In this document: positions 669 through 50,074 of the stretch, piece after piece
How positions within the stretch are numbered: position 1 is the stretch's first letter
Layout of the letters: the number at the start of each line of letters is the position of its first letter
Assembly: GCA_034439475.1 (NCBI GenBank)
Contig: JAWXAN010000042.1
Span: 1 to 64,000, forward strand
DNA from: Candidatus Zixiibacteriota bacterium
GTDB taxonomy: Bacteria > Zixibacteria > MSB-5A5 > GN15 > FEB-12
Direction of reading: 5' to 3'
DNA length: 64,000 nt
Translations under genes and position numbers: made by a program
The notes under the pieces: generated by a model
Seen by the model: the letters and a program-made list of their open reading frames with translations, nothing else
Told to the model about the DNA's origin: nothing
Databases searched by the model: none

Positions 669-2993
669 ATGGCCGCGCAAACATATCCCAAACTCCGCTC
701 TGACCTTGTTGCCTCATCTTCAATTGTCGATGGCAGTATCGTCTATACTGTCAAAGACCCAATCACCGGTAAATACTTTCGGCTCCGCGAATTAGAGTAC
801 TGGCTGGTTGGGCAGCTCGATGGAGCGACTGCGCCCGAGACCGTTGCTGAGCGCGTCCGCGAGAAATTCTCGGTCAACATAACGCCCGAGCATGTCGGAC
901 AATTTGTAGCCATGCTCGAGGGTTTGCTGTTTCTTGAAAACAGCCGGAGCGAGCAGGGGATATCGAAACTTTCGGTTCGGGCAGGACAAAAATCATCACT
1001 TGCATCACGGCTGCTCTTTGTGAAACTCAAAGCATTCAAACCGGGTCCATTTCTGGATCGGCTGACCGCGCTCTATCGGCCATTCCACAATCCATTTTGG
1101 TTTGTGATTTCGTGGCTGGTTATCATCACAGGCTTCTCGCTCCTGTTTGCGAACTACTCAGAGTTCAATCTGAATCTTGCTGAATTATTTCATCTCCATT
1201 CTATCGGACTGATAATTGTCGTTCTGTTTGTGATGCTGACTCTGCATGAATACGCCCATGCCATTCTCTGCCGCTACTATGGCGGGGCTGTGCACGAGAT
1301 GGGGTTTTTGCTCATGTATTTCCAACCCTGCTTCTATTGTGATATCTCCGATGCCTGGCTCTTTCCTCAAAAGTCTCGACGCCTTGCGGTTACCTGGGCC
1401 GGGCCGTTTTATCAGTTTCTGATACTTGCGGTAGCGATGATTATTTGGCGGGTGACAGTCGAAGATACAGCCGTCAACATAGTCGCCAGAATGTTTGTTC
1501 TCGTGTGCTGGATAACGACCTTTGTAAATTTCAATCCGCTCATCAAACTCGATGGCTACTATATGCTTTCAGACTGGGTGGAAATCCCGAATCTCCGCCA
1601 AAAGGCATTCGCCTATCTTGGAAATGTGTTGAAGCGTCACATCCTCGGCTGGCCAATTGAGTTGATTATTCCAAGCCGGCGGGAGAGAAAAATTTTCTTT
1701 CTCTACGGCGGCCTCGCGATTCTATTCTCGACTTTCCTGCTGGGTTACATGCTGTATCTGATCGGGGGATTCATCTATGGCCGTTGGGGCGGTTTTGGAT
1801 TGACCTTGTTCATTGTCGCGCTTCTGATTATCTTAAAAGACAGCCTTCGGAACCTATTTTTGGGAACCGTACGGCATGTGATATATATGAAAAAGCTACT
1901 CAGCCAACCTTTCAGACTTGCAACGTACGCGATTGTTCTCATTGCCGTCGTGGTCGTTGTGCTTGCGATCTCCTTTCCTCACCGGGTTTCCGGCAACATT
2001 ACGGTCGAGCCGCTCAACGAATTTTCACTTTCCCTCAATGCCTTTGGCCTCCTTGAACAAAACCTCCGGCTTGGCGGCGAGAGACCCGAAAGCAAATCGA
2101 GTTATCTTCAGATGACCTCAAGCGATATGGCCGCGCTTGAACTGCTGCCGCTCGTCAGCGACGGCGAACAGATTCAGAGTGGAGACACAGTCGCGATTCT
2201 GATTTCAAATCAGATTACCGGGGAGCTCGCCGGAGCCCATTCCGAGCTTGAGCGCCTGCAGAGTAACCTTGTGCTTCTCAAAGCTCCCCCCAAAAAAGAG
2301 CGAATCAGTGAGATGGAATCGCAGGTATCAGCCGCTCAAAGTAATTTCAACCAACTCAAAAGAAACCTCGACAGAATTCAGGAATTGGTCAATCGGAAAC
2401 TGGAGTCGACTGATAAGCTCGAAAGCTCGCAGTCGGCATTTGATATCGCCAAGGCTGAACTGAGCAACAAGGAATCCGCATTGCGCCTGCTCAAATCCCC
2501 GCCGCGACCCGAAGAAGAAACAGTGCTGGCCCATGAAATCTCCAAACAACAGGCGCGGCTTGGCTTTCTCAAAGTCCAGGCCGACGCACAGGTGGTGGTT
2601 TCGCCCATCTCCGGGACAGTATTTGTGGGGCATGGAGCGGGCAAGGACAAGAGTATATTGTCGGTTTGCCAACAAAACGAAATAGAACTGCATATCCCAG
2701 TCTCTGATTTTGATCTCCCGCTGATAAGCCTTGGCCAGACTGTTCAGGTCAAAGTCCGCTCTTATCCTGATAGGCTTTTCGAGGGGCGTGTGGTTCGCAT
2801 ACCTGCAGCGGCTGATAGTATCGCGGGCAAAAATTATTTCCCGGTCTCGGTACTGGTGGAAAACTCAGAGAGCTTGCTTCGCGATGGAATGTCCGGCTAT
2901 GCGAAAATCGAGATTGGCAAAAAATCACTTGTCGCGCTGGCGTATCGAAAATTGTTATCGGGAATCAGAGTCGAGTTCTGGTCATGGTGGTAG
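669..2993 (+). CDS. PqqD-like / site-2-protease (M50) / HlyD-like fusion membrane protein
   Basis: A 774-residue three-part protein. Residues about 5-95 look like a PqqD-type peptide-binding domain (YTVKDPITGKYFRLRELEYWLV). Residues about 145-410 form a polytopic membrane zinc-protease core with HEYAH at 193-197 and the NPLIKLDG motif (Asp about 295) that supplies the third zinc ligand in S2P proteases. After a membrane segment near 416-435 comes a HlyD-like adaptor: lipoyl-type halves around a coiled coil at about 545-620. This matches proteins usually annotated as peptide zinc metalloprotease (YydH-like), which process or export ribosomal peptides; that role is inferred from the family. An in-frame TAG directly upstream (663-665) makes ATG 669 the first possible ATG. 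A small exported Cys/His-rich protein and a 25-residue peptide gene lie downstream. Confidence 0.85.
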   Translation: MAAQTYPKLRSDLVASSSIVDGSIVYTVKDPITGKYFRLRELEYWLVGQLDGATAPETVAERVREKFSVNITPEHVGQFVAMLEGLLFLENSRSEQGISKLSVRAGQKSSLASRLLFVKLKAFKPGPFLDRLTALYRPFHNPFWFVISWLVIITGFSLLFANYSEFNLNLAELFHLHSIGLIIVVLFVMLTLHEYAHAILCRYYGGAVHEMGFLLMYFQPCFYCDISDAWLFPQKSRRLAVTWAGPFYQFLILAVAMIIWRVTVEDTAVNIVARMFVLVCWITTFVNFNPLIKLDGYYMLSDWVEIPNLRQKAFAYLGNVLKRHILGWPIELIIPSRRERKIFFLYGGLAILFSTFLLGYMLYLIGGFIYGRWGGFGLTLFIVALLIILKDSLRNLFLGTVRHVIYMKKLLSQPFRLATYAIVLIAVVVVVLAISFPHRVSGNITVEPLNEFSLSLNAFGLLEQNLRLGGERPESKSSYLQMTSSDMAALELLPLVSDGEQIQSGDTVAILISNQITGELAGAHSELERLQSNLVLLKAPPKKERISEMESQVSAAQSNFNQLKRNLDRIQELVNRKLESTDKLESSQSAFDIAKAELSNKESALRLLKSPPRPEEETVLAHEISKQQARLGFLKVQADAQVVVSPISGTVFVGHGAGKDKSILSVCQQNEIELHIPVSDFDLPLISLGQTVQVKVRSYPDRLFEGRVVRIPAAADSIAGKNYFPVSVLVENSESLLRDGMSGYAKIEIGKKSLVALAYRKLLSGIRVEFWSWW

Positions 2994-3098: not shown

Positions 3099-3590
3099 AT
3101 GAGAAAAATCTTAGCAATTGCGGCTCTAGTAATAGCCGCCGGAATGATGGTCATGGCCGATGAAAAGCCGTGGCTCGATTTGGAAAACTGCGCCTACTGT
3201 AAACAGTTCACTGCACAGCCAGGTCTGATGGAGCATTGCCATCACGAATACCATAACATCAGTAATGGAGTTGTGAGCATATTTACCGTCGAGAAAGACT
3301 ACCAAGACAAGATGGCCGCAGCCATGCTCGGTATGCAGAAGGTCGGCGAGGATATAGGCAAGGGGACGGGCGCAGTTCCTGTATTGTGCGGTCACTGCGA
3401 GGCTTACGGAAAGTTCATGATGAGCGGCAAAGTCAACTCTGAAGAAGTAAAGAGTGGACTTATGACAATGGCGCTTATGACGTCATCGGATTCTGCTACC
3501 GTGGCTGAACTTCACGCTTTTGGAGAGAAAAGCAACGCCGAAGGCAAGAAGATGATGGAAGCGATGATGATGAAGTCATCAAAGAAATAA
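3099..3590 (+). CDS. small exported Cys/His-rich protein, function unknown
   Basis: A 163-residue protein with a clear signal peptide (MRKILAIAALVIAAGMMVMA). The mature part has CAYC near residue 27, a CHHEYH cluster near residue 46 and CGHC near residue 101, followed by a Met-rich, helical, Lys-rich C-terminus. Two CxxC pairs plus the His cluster suggest metal binding (iron, copper or zinc) or a disulfide role in the periplasm, but I do not recognise the family. GGAGG precedes the ATG at good spacing. It has its own promoter at 3035 and a strong terminator at 3610, so it is a monocistron. Confidence 0.85.
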   Translation: MRKILAIAALVIAAGMMVMADEKPWLDLENCAYCKQFTAQPGLMEHCHHEYHNISNGVVSIFTVEKDYQDKMAAAMLGMQKVGEDIGKGTGAVPVLCGHCEAYGKFMMSGKVNSEEVKSGLMTMALMTSSDSATVAELHAFGEKSNAEGKKMMEAMMMKSSKK

Positions 3591-3832: not shown

Positions 3833-3860
3833 TTGACAATAGTTCGTCTGGACTTATATT
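3833..3860 (+). promoter_or_regulatory. strong sigma70-type promoter for 25-residue peptide
   Basis: TTGACA at 3833-3838 and TATATT at 3855-3860 are 16 bases apart. The predicted transcript has a leader of about 160 bases before ATG 4028, with a perfect hairpin at 3976-3998. Confidence 0.65.
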
Positions 3861-3975
3861 TATCGCATGTCAAGTTTAACGACGTGTTTTGTTACGACTG
3901 CGCATGTGAATACTTTAATTAATAAATACCTGTGTGATAATTGTTTTATGAATTTTCCAAGTGAATATAAAAGAA

Positions 3976-3998
3976 ATGCTTCCCGCTCGGGGAAGCAT
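3976..3998 (+). promoter_or_regulatory. leader hairpin upstream of peptide gene
   Basis: ATGCTTCCC (3976-3984) and GGGAAGCAT (3990-3998) form a perfect 9-bp stem with a 5-base loop. It sits 15 bases before the ribosome site. There is no T-run, so a stabilising or translational role is more likely than termination. Confidence 0.6.
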
Positions 3999-4027
3999 GC
4001 ATTAAACAATTTAAAGGAGGTGACTTG

Positions 4028-4105
4028 ATGACGGATTACAAACTTACCGTCGAGGTCCTCGAAGCTCGTATCGCCCCAGGCATGAGCGTCGGCGGTCAAG
4101 GCTGA
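4028..4105 (+). CDS. 25-residue peptide gene, candidate secreted/modified peptide precursor
   Basis: The frame begins ATG 4028 and stops TGA 4103-4105. It is preceded by AAAGGAGGTGA (4013-4023), a near-perfect ribosome site at ideal spacing. The peptide has a polar start, a central VEVLEARIAPG block and a Gly-rich end SVGGQG. It has a consensus promoter (3833), a leader hairpin and an intrinsic terminator (4116), so it is a complete stand-alone unit. The LEARIAP block resembles the LExR(I/L)AP-like motif near the N-terminus of some large exported proteins of Planctomycetes-type bacteria; that likeness is from memory. A PqqD/S2P/HlyD fusion, the kind of protein that handles ribosomal peptides, is encoded 1 kb upstream. 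Leader-plus-GG-core precursor, signalling peptide or short regulatory peptide are all possible. An antisense frame (3860-4099) overlaps but has no such signals. Confidence 0.6.
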   Translation: MTDYKLTVEVLEARIAPGMSVGGQG

Positions 4106-4115
4106 TATTGAAATT

Positions 4116-4150
4116 GAGGGCAGGCCGAAATCCTGCCCTCTTATTTTTTC
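4116..4150 (+). terminator. intrinsic terminator after peptide gene
   Basis: GAGGGCAGG (4116-4124) and CCTGCCCTC (4132-4140) form a perfect 9-bp stem with a 7-base loop. TTATTTTTTC (4141-4150) follows, which overlaps the 3' end of the convergent kinase gene. Confidence 0.85.
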
Positions 4151-7125
4151 CCTACAACTCTGTTCAATTTCCCAATTTCTTGAGCGAGGTAGACTATCTC
4201 GCGCTTATTCTGAAAAATGGTCCTATCCGCAGGCGATACAATGGAATCGCTGACCTTCTTTGCAAGCATGAGCGCTTTCTTGAATACGCCGAATGATTTC
4301 TCGAAATCTTTTTCGATCAGCCGAAGTCGGCCTTCTATTATCGAGTACCGGAGCAGGTCAAAGACAACTCCTGAAACGACAGCAATCTGCTTCGCCCTGT
4401 TTAGAAAAGGAAGAGCCTCATTTGGTTGGCCCTGGGCGATCTTAAGTTCAGCGACCGAACAACAAATAGAACTGACCTCAATGCTGTCTGGCAGAGTTAG
4501 AGCTTCGCCGATATATGGCTCAATCGTAGGAAGCATTCTCATGTCGTTTTTCTCAAGGGCATATTCAAGCATGTTGAACACTAGCCGAATCCTATTGCGA
4601 CGTTCTTTCATATCTTCAGTAAGCGCCATAGCTCTGTCAACATATATAGTTTCATTCGTCAGACGCGTAATAAGGAGCAACGCATTCATTTCATTGAGAT
4701 GATCCTTGCGGCCTTGAGCCTCAACAGTCAGTTTTTTGGCTTGATCGAAGGCAGTCTCACCATCGCCCACGCAGTTGCGAATTTCCGCTTTTTGTATCTT
4801 CGCTGAAAAAACCAGGCTTGGATCATCAATAGAAAGAAGCGTCCTTTCTGCTCGCACCAATGCTTGCTCGGCTTCAGAAATCCTGCCCATCAATCTGAAA
4901 ACCGCTGCCATATCGAGTTGGAAAGAGGCATTGTGTGCGAGGTCGTCAATACTCTCCGAAAGTTCAACCCCCTCTTTGATATACTGGAGCGACTGCTTGA
5001 GTTGTCCGGCACAGATCATCATAGAAGTTAATGTCGCAAGATTGATTAGGACTTCTTTTTTGTTGCCTGTTCTTCGGTTCAGTTCAAGCGACTCGCCTAC
5101 ACAGACAACTGCCTTGCCGCTGTCGCCGCTCAAGTGATAAATATATCCGAGATTATTGAGGGTCCGAGCGATTTCACCCATGTTGCCAAGTTCTTTCTTC
5201 ATATTGAGCGAAAGATTGAATAACCGGATAGCGCGCCCATACGAGCCTCGCATAAAATACATGACCGCGATGTTATTGACAGTCGATGCCACCTCCGCAT
5301 CGGCACCGGCTTTTCTCTGGATGTGTAGCGCCTGTCGGTAATGTGAGAGGGCTTTTGGTAAATCAGAGTTTATCCAGTATAAGTTGCCAAGATTATTCAG
5401 GACATGGGAAATGTCCAGATGGAGATTCAGTTTCTCGTAAATGATAATCGCCTTCTCCAGCGATTGTACCCCGGCCGCAAAGTCCTGCTTGAGTCGATAG
5501 AGATCGCCTAAACTTTTGTGTGCATCGGCGAGCAGTTTTTCTTCTGGAAGTGACTCGAATAGTACAATTAGCCGTTCGTACATCACCATCGACTCGGCGA
5601 ATTCGCCATTCTCTTTGGATATATTCCCAGCGACTAATAAGAGCCCACGGATCAATTTCAAATTATTCGTGAGTTCTGCAAACTCGATCACGCGTCTGAG
5701 AAGATGCATTGCCCGTTTGGGCTGGAGATCTCCATTAAGTCTGATTGCGGCTTGGTATGCGCATCGATCGGCCTCCTCAAGCTTTCCGGCACGAAGATAG
5801 GTATATCCAGCCAGCTCTATCTGTTCCTGTTTTTCGAATCTAATGGCTTGTTTTGACGCAAGCCGTTTGATTGACTTTGGGGAGAGAAACTGAGTCAGCA
5901 TCTCCGAAAAGGCGGGCGGGAGGCCGTAGGCAGAGCAGAGGTTAGTTGAAACAGGAGGCATATAGCAAGTGTTTGGCGTTCTCGCTGAGTATGAAATCAC
6001 CGACTTCTTTGCTTTTAAGGGGAGACAGGAGAAAGCCGCAAGCTCAGACTTCCTCAGTCTGTTCGGCCAAAGCACATCCTGTTTGAAGGTAAATCGGCCT
6101 TTGTCATACTTTAGATTTCCACAGAGAAAATTGGACGCGATGAGAACGCGCAGTTTTTCTGAATGACCGCCGGTAATGTCATCGACACGCCTGCGCTGCT
6201 CATCGCTTATATCGAGAACACTTCCAATCAGTTCGGAGTACTTCTGAGTGCGTCTTGTCAAATGTGATGGCCGCAGGGCATTCTCGAATGGATAATGTGC
6301 GCCAATTTTCTTAAGTTCACAGCAGACTTGCCATGCCGATTCGGGTCGCTGGGATGAATCTTTTGAGAGAAGGCGGTTTATAAACGCAACTAATCCATGA
6401 GGCAGATCTGGACGCAGTTCTTTGATGGGTTTTGGCTCCTGCTCCCTGACACGGCTGTTTATGACAAGCGGGTCATTGTCTTCAGCCATAAATGGATGGA
6501 CACCAGTGAACATCTGATATGCCATCACGCCCAAGGCAAAAAGATCGGAACGATGAGAGGTTTCGCCCGCGACAATTGTCTCTGGGGCCATATATCCCAA
6601 TGTTCCCAGGCCGAGCCGGCAAGAGTTTGACTCATTGACAAGTCTTCCGAGCGAGAAGTCCGAAAGCTTAAGGTAGAAAAATCGGTTATCAGCGCATTCC
6701 CTCCAATTTGAGGGAAGGAAGAAATTGTGTGGTTTGATGTCGCCATGAATTATACCGCTGGCATTGAGATACTCAAGCGAGAGCACTGCTGCTGATAAGA
6801 GATTAACCGCTACTGCTATATCCTCGACTCTTCCCACTGAGTCCAAAGTCGGGCCATGGCACATCTCCAGTAGTAGATACGGCTTTTCAGTGTCCGGTTT
6901 CTCTAAGAGCCTCACAAGTCCCGGGAATCTTCGCCCGCCGATAAGCTCCCATTCGCGGTCAATAAGCGCTTTGAGATCAATTGCCGGGAAAGCGCATGTG
7001 AGAGGAGCTTTGACTGCTGCAAAACGCGCCAAATCGGCAACATAGGCTCGCGAGACCTCCGCTGTTCCTCCGCGGCCAAGCAGACTTATGTCGCTAAAGC
7101 GGGAATCGGATGCCAGAGGGCTCAT
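4141..7125 (-). CDS. Ser/Thr protein kinase with TPR array
   Basis: A 994-residue protein. The N-terminal protein kinase domain (about 11-275) has the Gly-rich loop GRGGTAEV (17-24), ATP-anchoring Lys39 (AVK), the catalytic loop HGDIKPHN with Asp129 (HGD instead of HRD), metal-binding Asp156 in a DFS version of DFG, and GYMAPE. A linker leads into a long TPR region (about 410-900) with repeated A..LG..Y.......A...Y..AL patterns. No membrane segment is evident, so it is probably cytosolic, with TPRs sensing or docking partners. Its ATG follows the stop of the upstream histidine kinase directly (TAAATG), so the two are translationally coupled. Its 3' end meets the terminator of the 25-residue peptide gene. 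Confidence 0.92.
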   Translation of the reverse strand: MSPLASDSRFSDISLLGRGGTAEVSRAYVADLARFAAVKAPLTCAFPAIDLKALIDREWELIGGRRFPGLVRLLEKPDTEKPYLLLEMCHGPTLDSVGRVEDIAVAVNLLSAAVLSLEYLNASGIIHGDIKPHNFFLPSNWRECADNRFFYLKLSDFSLGRLVNESNSCRLGLGTLGYMAPETIVAGETSHRSDLFALGVMAYQMFTGVHPFMAEDNDPLVINSRVREQEPKPIKELRPDLPHGLVAFINRLLSKDSSQRPESAWQVCCELKKIGAHYPFENALRPSHLTRRTQKYSELIGSVLDISDEQRRRVDDITGGHSEKLRVLIASNFLCGNLKYDKGRFTFKQDVLWPNRLRKSELAAFSCLPLKAKKSVISYSARTPNTCYMPPVSTNLCSAYGLPPAFSEMLTQFLSPKSIKRLASKQAIRFEKQEQIELAGYTYLRAGKLEEADRCAYQAAIRLNGDLQPKRAMHLLRRVIEFAELTNNLKLIRGLLLVAGNISKENGEFAESMVMYERLIVLFESLPEEKLLADAHKSLGDLYRLKQDFAAGVQSLEKAIIIYEKLNLHLDISHVLNNLGNLYWINSDLPKALSHYRQALHIQRKAGADAEVASTVNNIAVMYFMRGSYGRAIRLFNLSLNMKKELGNMGEIARTLNNLGYIYHLSGDSGKAVVCVGESLELNRRTGNKKEVLINLATLTSMMICAGQLKQSLQYIKEGVELSESIDDLAHNASFQLDMAAVFRLMGRISEAEQALVRAERTLLSIDDPSLVFSAKIQKAEIRNCVGDGETAFDQAKKLTVEAQGRKDHLNEMNALLLITRLTNETIYVDRAMALTEDMKERRNRIRLVFNMLEYALEKNDMRMLPTIEPYIGEALTLPDSIEVSSICCSVAELKIAQGQPNEALPFLNRAKQIAVVSGVVFDLLRYSIIEGRLRLIEKDFEKSFGVFKKALMLAKKVSDSIVSPADRTIFQNKREIVYLAQEIGKLNRVVGKK

Positions 7126-8919
7126 TTAGACTTTTGCGTTTTGAGTTTGCGGATGGAAGCGCGGAAGTACAAGTGTAAATGTCGAGCCTTGTCCCGCGAC
7201 CGAATCGACAGTGAGCGTGCCGCCATGCTGTTTGACTATCTTGACGCAGTTATATAGCCCAAGACCGTGCCCGCCCTTTTTAGTCGAGAAGTGTAAAGTG
7301 AAAATTTTTGCACGCACTTCATTGCTCATGCCGATGCCGTTGTCTCTAATTTGAACTACAATTTTGTCCTGAGCGGCATCGAATGCGGCAGTCACACCGA
7401 TTTCGCGAGAAAACTGCTTCTCGGTGTCAGTTTGTTTTGACGCATGATCCTCTATAGCATCTGCGGCATTATTGAGCAGATTCATAAGTACTTGCTGGAC
7501 TTGGCCGACATCGATCTCAAGATTCGGTATCTCTACTGTCATATCAATGGTGAAATGGATGAGCTTCAATCGCGGTTGAATACGCATTGAAAAGAGCAGG
7601 TCATCAATAAGTCGTTTAATGTCATAGCTGATATATTCCGGTTCGGGATTGGAGAAATCCATCAAGCTGTCAACAAACCGTTTGATCTTAAAGATATTTT
7701 CGACTATCGATTTGCTATTGAATTTGACCTTGTCAAACTTTTCTCGGTCGATGTTCAGGCTCATCAACTCGGCGTTGTTTGCGATAATGGCTAGATAATT
7801 ATTTAACTCGTGCGCGACAGAGGCCGCCATCTCACCGCGGGCGACCAGTTTCTCGGAGAGAATGACATATTGCTCCATGGTGACTTTTTCTGTGGCATCT
7901 TCCATTGTCATAATAAGGCCGTCGGAACCGTTAGGCAGATTGCTCACCGGCGAAATTTTCAACGAGAGGACTTTCTCAAGATAACCCGTGTTGTGATAAT
8001 AGCGGGCATCGGAATACTCATGCCATGTCGTGAGAACAATATTAATCATCGTCCTCCAGCGGCCACGTTCGGATTCGGGAATGATATCCAAAAACCTTGT
8101 TGGATTGAGATCAAATCCCAGAAGTCGGACATTATCGCGATCCAAGTCGAGAATTTCCAGTCCGACGGTGTTGACCGAGGCAATGCGGCCTGTGTTATCG
8201 ATCACAACTATTCCGACCGGTGAATTTGCGACAATCGATTGATTGAAGCGCTGCAGCCGCTTTAAGGAATCAAAAATATTCGCGTTGTGAAGGGCATTCG
8301 AAACAATTTGGGCATATAGCTCAAAGAGGTACAAATCGGATTTGAGAAACATCTTTGTCTGATTGGAGTTATCGAGATATATTACGCCAATGACAGTGCC
8401 CTTTATCATTAGCGGCACACACATAATCAAACGCAGGTGAAGCTCGACGACAGACTGTTGGTTTGAATAACGGTCGTCAGCCATTGCATCCGATGTGTAA
8501 ACCGCTTTGCCGGTGGAGGCAACCTGCGAAGTAGTACTGTTTGATATCCGGAAATCCTCTTCCATCATTTGCTCTTTGCAGAGGTTGTACCCGGTCTTGA
8601 CTTGAAGTTCTCCTTGTTCGTCAAGAAGCATGATGAGTCCGCGCTCGGCCTGCATCAGCTCGACAGCTTTGCGCATAACCATCTCAAGGACTTCGTTTAT
8701 TTCAAGCGAAGAATTGACAGCAAGCGAGACCTCGAGAATTGCCCGAAGATCTGTCTCTCGACGCACATTATCTCCGTGACCACCATCAATTCGAGGGTTG
8801 GCTTCAGCGACTTCGTCGAGAGTGGCCTCGAGGTCAGCGAAAATATCCGCAGACAAGGTGCTCTTTTCTGAAGTATCTTTGGTGTCGTGTGTTATATCAG
8901 CCATGTTTCCGTCAAGCAT
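7126..8919 (-). CDS. GAF/PAS sensor histidine kinase
   Basis: A 597-residue cytosolic sensor kinase. A GAF domain (about 60-215) is followed by a PAS-like segment (about 225-340), a dimerisation/phosphoacceptor region with His370 in VAHELNN, and a HATPase domain with the N-box LMNLLNNAADAIEDHA, the DNGIGM box and GHGLGLYNCVKI. It phosphorylates an unidentified regulator; no receiver is adjacent. The GAF is soluble, so the input is probably a cytosolic ligand or redox state. It is coupled to the Ser/Thr kinase gene downstream with no gap. Start choice is uncertain: ATG 8919 and ATG 8904 (MADITH) both lack a strong ribosome site. Confidence 0.92.
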   Translation of the reverse strand: MLDGNMADITHDTKDTSEKSTLSADIFADLEATLDEVAEANPRIDGGHGDNVRRETDLRAILEVSLAVNSSLEINEVLEMVMRKAVELMQAERGLIMLLDEQGELQVKTGYNLCKEQMMEEDFRISNSTTSQVASTGKAVYTSDAMADDRYSNQQSVVELHLRLIMCVPLMIKGTVIGVIYLDNSNQTKMFLKSDLYLFELYAQIVSNALHNANIFDSLKRLQRFNQSIVANSPVGIVVIDNTGRIASVNTVGLEILDLDRDNVRLLGFDLNPTRFLDIIPESERGRWRTMINIVLTTWHEYSDARYYHNTGYLEKVLSLKISPVSNLPNGSDGLIMTMEDATEKVTMEQYVILSEKLVARGEMAASVAHELNNYLAIIANNAELMSLNIDREKFDKVKFNSKSIVENIFKIKRFVDSLMDFSNPEPEYISYDIKRLIDDLLFSMRIQPRLKLIHFTIDMTVEIPNLEIDVGQVQQVLMNLLNNAADAIEDHASKQTDTEKQFSREIGVTAAFDAAQDKIVVQIRDNGIGMSNEVRAKIFTLHFSTKKGGHGLGLYNCVKIVKQHGGTLTVDSVAGQGSTFTLVLPRFHPQTQNAKV

Positions 8920-49403: not shown

Positions 49404-49476
49404 GGGGCAGTAGCTCAGTTGGGAGAGCGCCACGTTCGCAATGTGGAGGCCGACGGTTCGATCCCGTCCTGCTCCA
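49404..49476 (+). tRNA. tRNA-Ala (anticodon CGC)
   Basis: A standard cloverleaf: acceptor GGGGCAG pairs with CTGCTCC including the G3-U70 alanine identity pair, a TAGCTCAGTTGGGAGAGC D-arm, an anticodon stem-loop CCACG-TTCGCAA-TGTGG and a T-arm with GGTTCGATCC. The anticodon CGC reads GCG. Discriminator base is A, and CCA is not encoded. Confidence 0.95.
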
Positions 49477-49519
49477 GTTAAATCTTCCCAATACGTCCGA
49501 ATATGTCCGCTTCAGATGT

Positions 49520-49570
49520 CGGCTTTGATTTCTTGTACCACACTCCGCCGCGGCGGACGGTGGGTTCTTA
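49520..49570 (+). repeat. dispersed element A copy 3
   Basis: CGGCTTTGATTTCTTGTACC, then ACACTCCGCC, then GCGGCGGACGGTG, and GTTCTTA at the end. The minus-strand copy at 55084-55125 is close to identical over about 40 bases. Confidence 0.65.
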
Positions 49571-49649
49571 TATGTGGTGCAGGCCGAAGATGGCCTGTAC
49601 CTCTATTTACCCTGGATTCCGGCCTGCGCTGGAATGACATTGGGAGCGG

Positions 49650-49699
49650 CTGGTGCACGTTCCACCTCCTGCGGACTTGCGAGCCTCGTCCTCCACCAG
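49650..49699 (+). repeat. dispersed repeat related to 451-497
   Basis: CTGGTGCACGTTCCACCTCC, GCGGACTTG and CCACCAG ends. It is the plus-strand copy of the element at 451-497. The rest of 49571-49760, between tRNA-Ala and the SRP RNA, shows no gene. Confidence 0.55.
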
Positions 49700-49759
49700 A
49701 TCTTCGCAGGTTAGCTCCCTTCTCACTTTAAACCAATGGAAGCACCCCGAAAATATCGA

Positions 49760-49788
49760 TTGTGAGCATGGCTCGTAGTCGCTACCTT
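49760..49788 (+). promoter_or_regulatory. candidate promoter for SRP RNA
   Basis: TTGTGA at 49760-49765 and TACCTT at 49783-49788 are 17 bases apart, placing the start near 49795-49799, the paired 5' end of the RNA. Confidence 0.4.
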
Positions 49789-49798
49789 AAACAAACAA

Positions 49799-50074
<276 letters not shown>

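Follow-up and report, generated by a model that had tools for sequence, protein, structure and literature searches.

Positions 3833-4150 of the window, as we call the whole stretch of 64,000 nucleotides of Zixibacteria DNA analysed here, carry a frame of only 25 codons, and the question raised by this locus is whether so short a frame is a gene and, if it is, what becomes of its product and with which proteins it works. The first-pass annotation had read the locus as a self-contained transcription unit for a small peptide made of a short leader and a core. The gene is real and conserved, and it co-occurs with, and is linked to, the genes of two candidate partners. The explanation towards which we lean, taken as a whole, is that of a secreted octapeptide, cut and exported by a neighbouring RRE-M50-HlyD protein and read as a cell-to-cell signal by a Ser/Thr kinase with TPR repeats (kinase-TPR).

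A conserved gene for a 25-residue peptide

All the elements listed by the first-pass annotation were found in the sequence of the plus strand, where it had placed them: a promoter TTGACA-16-TATATT at 3833-3860 (11/12 match); a perfect 9-bp leader-RNA hairpin at 3976-3998, 5' of the ribosome-binding site AAAGGAGGTGA (4013-4023), which has GGAGGTGA-type counterparts in most relatives; a frame of 25 codons, MTDYKLTVEVLEARIAPGMSVGGQG, from the ATG at 4028 to the stop codon at 4103-4105; and an intrinsic terminator at 4116-4150, which separates two convergent genes and consists of a 9-bp stem (4116-4140, 7 G-C) followed by a T-rich stretch. Promoter-like sites occur in the stretch at chance level, with 4 found against 4.7 expected in shuffles, and the case for a peptide gene therefore rests on conservation. 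Scanned against Rfam, the window gave no RNA family at the peptide locus, and at the cut-offs neither the 25-residue peptide nor any of five longer relatives was matched by a Pfam or NCBIfam model. Elsewhere in the window, a tRNA gene and a large bacterial SRP RNA lie near each other (49404-50073).

A search of related genomes for short frames with the VEVLExRIAP block, as the first-pass annotation had proposed, returned relatives throughout the phylum. Of 80 genomes belonging to the same order, 22 contain the VExLExRIAP pattern and none a reversed control pattern, and a profile built from 31 relatives was positive in 104 of the 132 Zixibacteria genomes searched, with E-values per genome down to 1e-15. 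A second LExRIAP match in the source genome, on contig C7, was set aside because the profile detects the window copy only. The family consensus reads M-x-x-Y-x-L-x-x-E-V-L-E-x-R-I-A-P-x-G-x-S-x-G-G-Q, and over a 15-codon block in 60 copies synonymous differences far exceed nonsynonymous ones (pS 0.74, pN 0.20), which indicates that the peptide is translated and under purifying selection. The conditions under which the first-pass annotation would have given up its reading, a lack of relatives or a broken frame, therefore do not apply. A promoter matching at least 10 of 12 positions stands upstream of 37 of 62 copies, as compared with 4% of shuffles, and a terminator follows 56 of 61 copies (2.8% of shuffles). 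The leader hairpin is common (mean z -1.6; below -1.5 in 34 of 62) but differs in sequence and position. Its 5' arm is often pyrimidine-rich (CCTTCC/CCTCC), both at 3976-3998 and in relatives, and may instead pair with the GGAGG ribosome site as a possible switch. With this conservation, we regard it as virtually certain that the 25-residue frame is a real, conserved precursor gene, and the description of a small-peptide gene that has a promoter and a terminator of its own holds good.

The RRE-M50-HlyD protein encoded upstream

Upstream of the peptide gene, and also on the plus strand (669-2993), lies a gene for a 774-aa protein whose three-part architecture was established by sequence and predicted fold, from a match to NF041824, fold matches of the RRE and HlyD parts, and invariant catalytic residues. 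The N-terminus (about residues 8-90) is a PqqD-like RiPP-recognition element (RRE); the middle is an M50 intramembrane metalloprotease, with the HExxH residues H193/E194/H197 and NPLIKLDGYY at 289-298; and the C-terminal part is a MacA/EmrA-like HlyD adaptor, HlyD adaptors being matched in sequence as well. The NF041824 model (daptide_HExxH) matches residues 28-389 with a score of 225 bits, short of the 300 set as its cut-off, and the arrangement known from daptides, in which an M50 site-2 protease carries an RRE at its N-terminus, is present. In 39 fusion relatives from many phyla, HExxH and the DGYY motif are invariant, and Pfam PqqD matches 33 of 55 fusion relatives. The AlphaFold model of the first 130 residues (mean pLDDT 81) begins with three strands and three helices, and its top six Foldseek matches in the PDB are the leader-bound lasso RREs TbiB1/TfuB1, with probability 1.00 and modest E-values (3.7e-3 to 0.015); the full-length model matches MacA and EmrA in the C-terminal part. 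The C-terminal RVEFWSWW (window 2967-2990) is conserved across phyla, with R767, E769 and W771 nearly invariant, in a region of low predicted confidence. Just 3' of the protease stop codon, many relatives carry a GGAAA-N-TTTCC-like palindrome (L026, L034-L036, L040, L044), which may be a terminator or an operator.

The peptide gene lies 3' of the fusion gene on the same strand in 18 of the 20 relatives first examined. Across the 132 genomes, 97 have both genes, 4 the protease only, 7 the peptide only and 24 neither (Fisher 3e-16, a significance inflated by the fact that these counts treat related, partly incomplete genomes as independent). Two genomes, G005 and G006, constitute a clean joint absence of peptide and protease genes, both of which are kept in G004 of the same genus; at the empty site (L252, L253), tens of bases separate the convergent kinase-TPR gene from the end of a chloride-channel gene, which in many relatives precedes the protease gene. 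We rejected a unit of one gene that functions independently, the peptide gene going with the RRE-M50-HlyD gene, and it is in this functional sense that the self-contained unit of the first-pass annotation must be abandoned: the peptide belongs with the upstream gene and probably with the convergent kinase-TPR gene too. In our assessment, it is very probably the RRE-M50-HlyD protein that processes the precursor. Neighbours named from their sequences as chloride channel, FAD oxidoreductase and amidophosphoribosyltransferase were judged to be ordinary synteny.

Between the protease and peptide genes, the window carries a gene for a 163-aa protein (3099-3590) with no homologue in the other genomes compared and no match in Pfam or NCBIfam. 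It has a hydrophobic N-terminus, CxxC motifs and its own promoter-like TTGACA-17-TATTTT.

Predicted leader, cleavage site and core

Residues L6, L11, E12 and P17 are invariant in the alignment of 31 sequences, and the best-conserved stretch has a parallel in daptides, whose precursors stand beside RRE-M50 fusions and carry the leader motif ELExMEAP with Pro at -1, the leader being removed by the RRE-dependent intramembrane peptidase MpaP (PMC10036551). When LExMEAP is aligned with LEARIAP, cleavage is predicted after Ala16-Pro17, which would divide the peptide into a leader of residues 1-17, MTDYKLTVEVLEARIAP (4028-4078, plus strand), and a core, GMSVGGQG (4079-4105 with the stop codon, plus strand), that agrees with the family consensus xGxSxGGQ. 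The two motifs have the LExxxAP positions in common, with Met(-4) replaced by Arg/Lys and Glu(-3) by Ile/Val. Both the recognition of the leader by the RRE and the site of cleavage are inferred by homology, and by this analogy an M50 cut after IAP is probable. The short leader plus core suggested by the first-pass annotation is upheld as a reading, but VEVLEARIAP, taken there for a central block, would be the part of the leader that the protease recognises, and the core would comprise GMSVGGQG only.

The tail after IAP has 6-8 residues in 76 of 97 Zixibacteria copies and ends in Gln, Gly, Asp and other residues, not Thr. Normally there is one peptide gene per genome, with a near-constant octapeptide tail.

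The convergent kinase-TPR gene

On the minus strand, convergent with the peptide gene, lies the gene of a 994-aa Ser/Thr kinase with TPR repeats (4141-7125; Pfam Pkinase 1e-30, TPR_12 8e-36), our candidate sensor, and next to it on the same strand that of a 597-aa GAF-PAS histidine kinase (7126-8919; Pfam GAF_2, PAS_4, HisKA and HATPase_c), which adjoins the kinase-TPR gene in most relatives. In 74 of 80 testable genomes the kinase-TPR gene is convergent with the peptide gene and no more than 1.5 kb away; the protease gene lies within that distance in 56. In families f4, f7, f10, f12-f16 and f18 the protease gene is elsewhere (in f4, 22-27 kb from the peptide gene where one contig holds both) and the peptide gene is still convergent with kinase-TPR; its other side in these families usually has different neighbours. 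In the 80 genomes from the order, kinase-TPR occurs essentially as a single copy (66 genomes), and its presence tracks that of the peptide, with 61 genomes having both, 10 neither and 9 being discordant (Fisher 1.4e-6). The four discordant genomes with peptide and without kinase-TPR all belong to genus g11, whose tails are SRWGAD-like instead of SxGGQ.

The size of the octapeptide, the adjoining TPR protein and the near-constant tail suggest a peptide pheromone. Considering linkage and size, we rate the sensing of the peptide as a signal by kinase-TPR a serious possibility, to which we give slightly less than even weight. Several observations count against it: a pheromone that diversifies should co-vary with its receptor, and the nearly constant SxGGQ tail shows little of this; the surroundings of the peptide locus yielded no dedicated ABC transporter, outer-membrane channel or peptide importer; and in genus g15 the tail is GWSID, GGQ being lost and the kinase kept. 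Furthermore, convergent adjacency of two genes can persist without shared function.

The proposed mechanism would run as follows. The neighbouring RRE-M50-HlyD protein would bind residues 1-17, as a leader, through its RRE; a cut by the M50 domain after Ala16-Pro17, in or at the membrane, would then release free GMSVGGQG; and the fused HlyD adaptor would pass this octapeptide towards a channel in the outer membrane. Once mature, the peptide would act in Zixibacteria as a cell-to-cell signal, sensed directly or after re-uptake, and its readers would be the convergently encoded kinase-TPR protein and its histidine kinase. More tentatively, and with somewhat less confidence than in the signal at this locus, we envisage a phylum-wide pheromone system in which one protein would recognise a LExRIAP leader, cut behind it and export an octapeptide xGxSxGGQ for a kinase-TPR protein to read, other phyla using the same route to secrete sets of Gly/Asn/Pro-rich peptides.

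Related loci in other phyla

Fusion relatives were found in records labelled Acidobacteria, Verrucomicrobia, Planctomycetota, Rokubacteria, Gemmatimonadetes, Eisenbacteria, Ignavibacteriales and others. Within the 80 best fusion loci (Zixibacteria included), 60 hold short frames that carry the leader motif, 88 frames in total, as compared with 0-2 for each of four scrambled motifs. Outside Zixibacteria, the LExRIAP frames usually lie upstream of the fusion gene, in sets of one to five, and their tails are mostly 30-50 residues long, with abundant Gly, Asn and Pro. No kinase-TPR gene was found next to the fusion loci of these phyla, so signalling would be at most a Zixibacteria use of the machinery.

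Loci L128, L138, L143, L150 and L151 carry 3-5 LExRIAP precursors upstream of the fusion gene, with tail types that recur across phyla, namely GTGGYDGQPGNQ...NPSGSANPE, NPGNNNPPLNNTNNPGNEGTGG, TVGALHNNPNNPNNNN...VPNGAIPEGPAG and GPSNNGNPGNEVSNG; this recurrence reflects either conserved functions or exchange between phyla. Beside the fusion gene of an uncultured bacterium, the minus strand of L154 (8361-8619) encodes three peptides in tandem, nearly identical and ending in LEKRIAPTRAAIAMG.

Alternative explanations

The alternative that survives best, although we hold it unlikely, keeps the same precursor and protease and makes the product an effector, either bacteriocin-like or a surface or matrix peptide, with kinase-TPR incidental or a regulator of production only. 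It would accommodate the other phyla, where the fusion stands beside longer precursors with Gly/Asn/Pro-rich tails and without kinase-TPR, as well as genus g11, where as many as seven peptide genes with SRWGAD/SKYGIG tails stand in tandem (L084/G017, L081/G015, L050/G018) without the kinase; moreover, membrane activity is suspected of daptides, the closest relatives that undergo maturation, and hemolysis assays support this (PMC10036551). Conversely, bacteriocins are usually diversified, whereas the Zixibacteria tail is near-constant and normally comes from a single gene in each genome, and the linkage to kinase-TPR outlasts the linkage to the protease.

Somewhat less probable again is a true RiPP, whose core would be modified before cleavage by an enzyme from another locus, the candidate positions being the conserved Ser and the GGQ end. 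RiPPs typically depend on an RRE for the handling of their leader, the conserved S-x-GGQ tail would be compatible with a site of modification, and an FAD oxidoreductase gene lies near the locus in family f1, with a protein of equal length in f4; however, no modification enzyme is consistently linked, and the FAD gene is usually set apart by the chloride channel gene and is unlinked in other families.

The peptide might also stay in the cell unprocessed, as a small-protein regulator (e.g., an inhibitor or cofactor) of RRE-M50-HlyD or kinase-TPR, in keeping with its very small size, the better conservation of its leader part and its linkage to both proteins. We consider this quite improbable, since the final AP of the motif is the position where daptide leaders are cut, the motif is followed in other phyla by a variable 30-50-residue tail as in leader-core precursors, and RREs bind leaders for processing. 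Finally, a chance open frame in an intergenic region, which a length of 25 codons and local promoter-like sites at chance frequency might suggest, is refuted by the occurrence in 104 of 132 genomes, the purifying selection and the conserved promoter and terminator.

Novelty and implications

In the open-access literature, to which our search extended and which leaves subscription papers outside it, we found no description of peptides with this motif or of an RRE/PqqD, M50 and HlyD fusion. The RRE-M50 leader logic is known already from daptides; what open papers do not describe, as far as we found, is the fusion to HlyD, an octapeptide that looks unmodified, the link with the kinase and the distribution across phyla. 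We know of no cultured members of Zixibacteria, and for this phylum a testable octapeptide is now defined, together with its likely cutting enzyme and likely sensor. The RRE-M50 leader logic of daptides is carried over to many phyla and to a design in which a single protein would recognise, cut and export, and the LExRIAP motif provides a simple handle to find unannotated secreted peptides in environmental bacteria. If the proposal is true, the same delivery machine would serve other cores in Acidobacteria, Verrucomicrobia, Planctomycetes, Rokubacteria, Gemmatimonadetes and others.

Comparison with known systems

The first-pass annotation knew of no named family for the peptide, which agrees with the empty Pfam and NCBIfam searches, but the leader logic does have a named relative in the ELExMEAP of daptides (PMC10036551). 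Daptides (MpaA precursors, with the RRE-fused site-2 protease MpaP; NF041824) are likewise short precursors encoded beside an RRE-M50 gene, their leader ends in LExxxAP just before the core, and the RRE-M50 region is homologous over residues 28-389. In contrast to daptides, an HlyD adaptor is present here and the fusion scores below the NF041824 cut-off; the core has mostly 6-9 residues and ends in Gln/Gly, whereas the daptide core is aliphatic-rich and ends in Thr. No decarboxylase, aminotransferase or methyltransferase genes (MpaB/C/D/M) were seen among the neighbours scanned at the loci, the conserved neighbours being kinases, the chloride channel, the FAD oxidoreductase, an Omp85-like protein and SpoIIE. 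Daptide membership was rejected on these grounds, namely the missing C-terminal Thr (the Dmp site) and the modification genes not seen nearby.

Epipeptides (YydF/EpeX) resemble the proposal in that an M50 metalloprotease (YydH/EpeP/LiaK, NF058609) matures the peptide, and a review notes that EpeP is believed to export its epipeptide as well as to cut it (PMC10885120). Homology is weak, NF058609 giving 36.9 bits against the M50 part (cut-off 225), and the RRE, the HlyD adaptor and the precursor set the present system apart. No radical SAM epimerase or ABC genes were seen among the conserved neighbours identified, and epipeptide identity was rejected because no radical SAM gene was seen nearby and the precursor differs from the YydF type.

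The N-terminal LExR-like motif of the Planctomycete extracellular motif (PF07595) and of the LEPR-XLL domain is a further likeness. These motifs are known from larger, presumably extracellular proteins; one relative of the peptide, from Planctomycetota, scores 12.7 bits against PF07595 (E 0.11, cut-off 25.5), and the window peptide has no match.

In RRNPP systems (Rap, Rgg, NprR, PlcR, PrgX), an exported and trimmed peptide of 5-10 residues is paired with a TPR protein encoded alongside. Membership by homology was rejected, since an N-terminal Pkinase domain stands here in place of the HTH that RRNPP receptors, except Rap, possess, and processing is predicted to be by RRE-M50-HlyD. The likeness lies in the TPR-repeat protein (TPR_12 8e-36) next to the peptide gene, which would here be a candidate receptor fused to a kinase.
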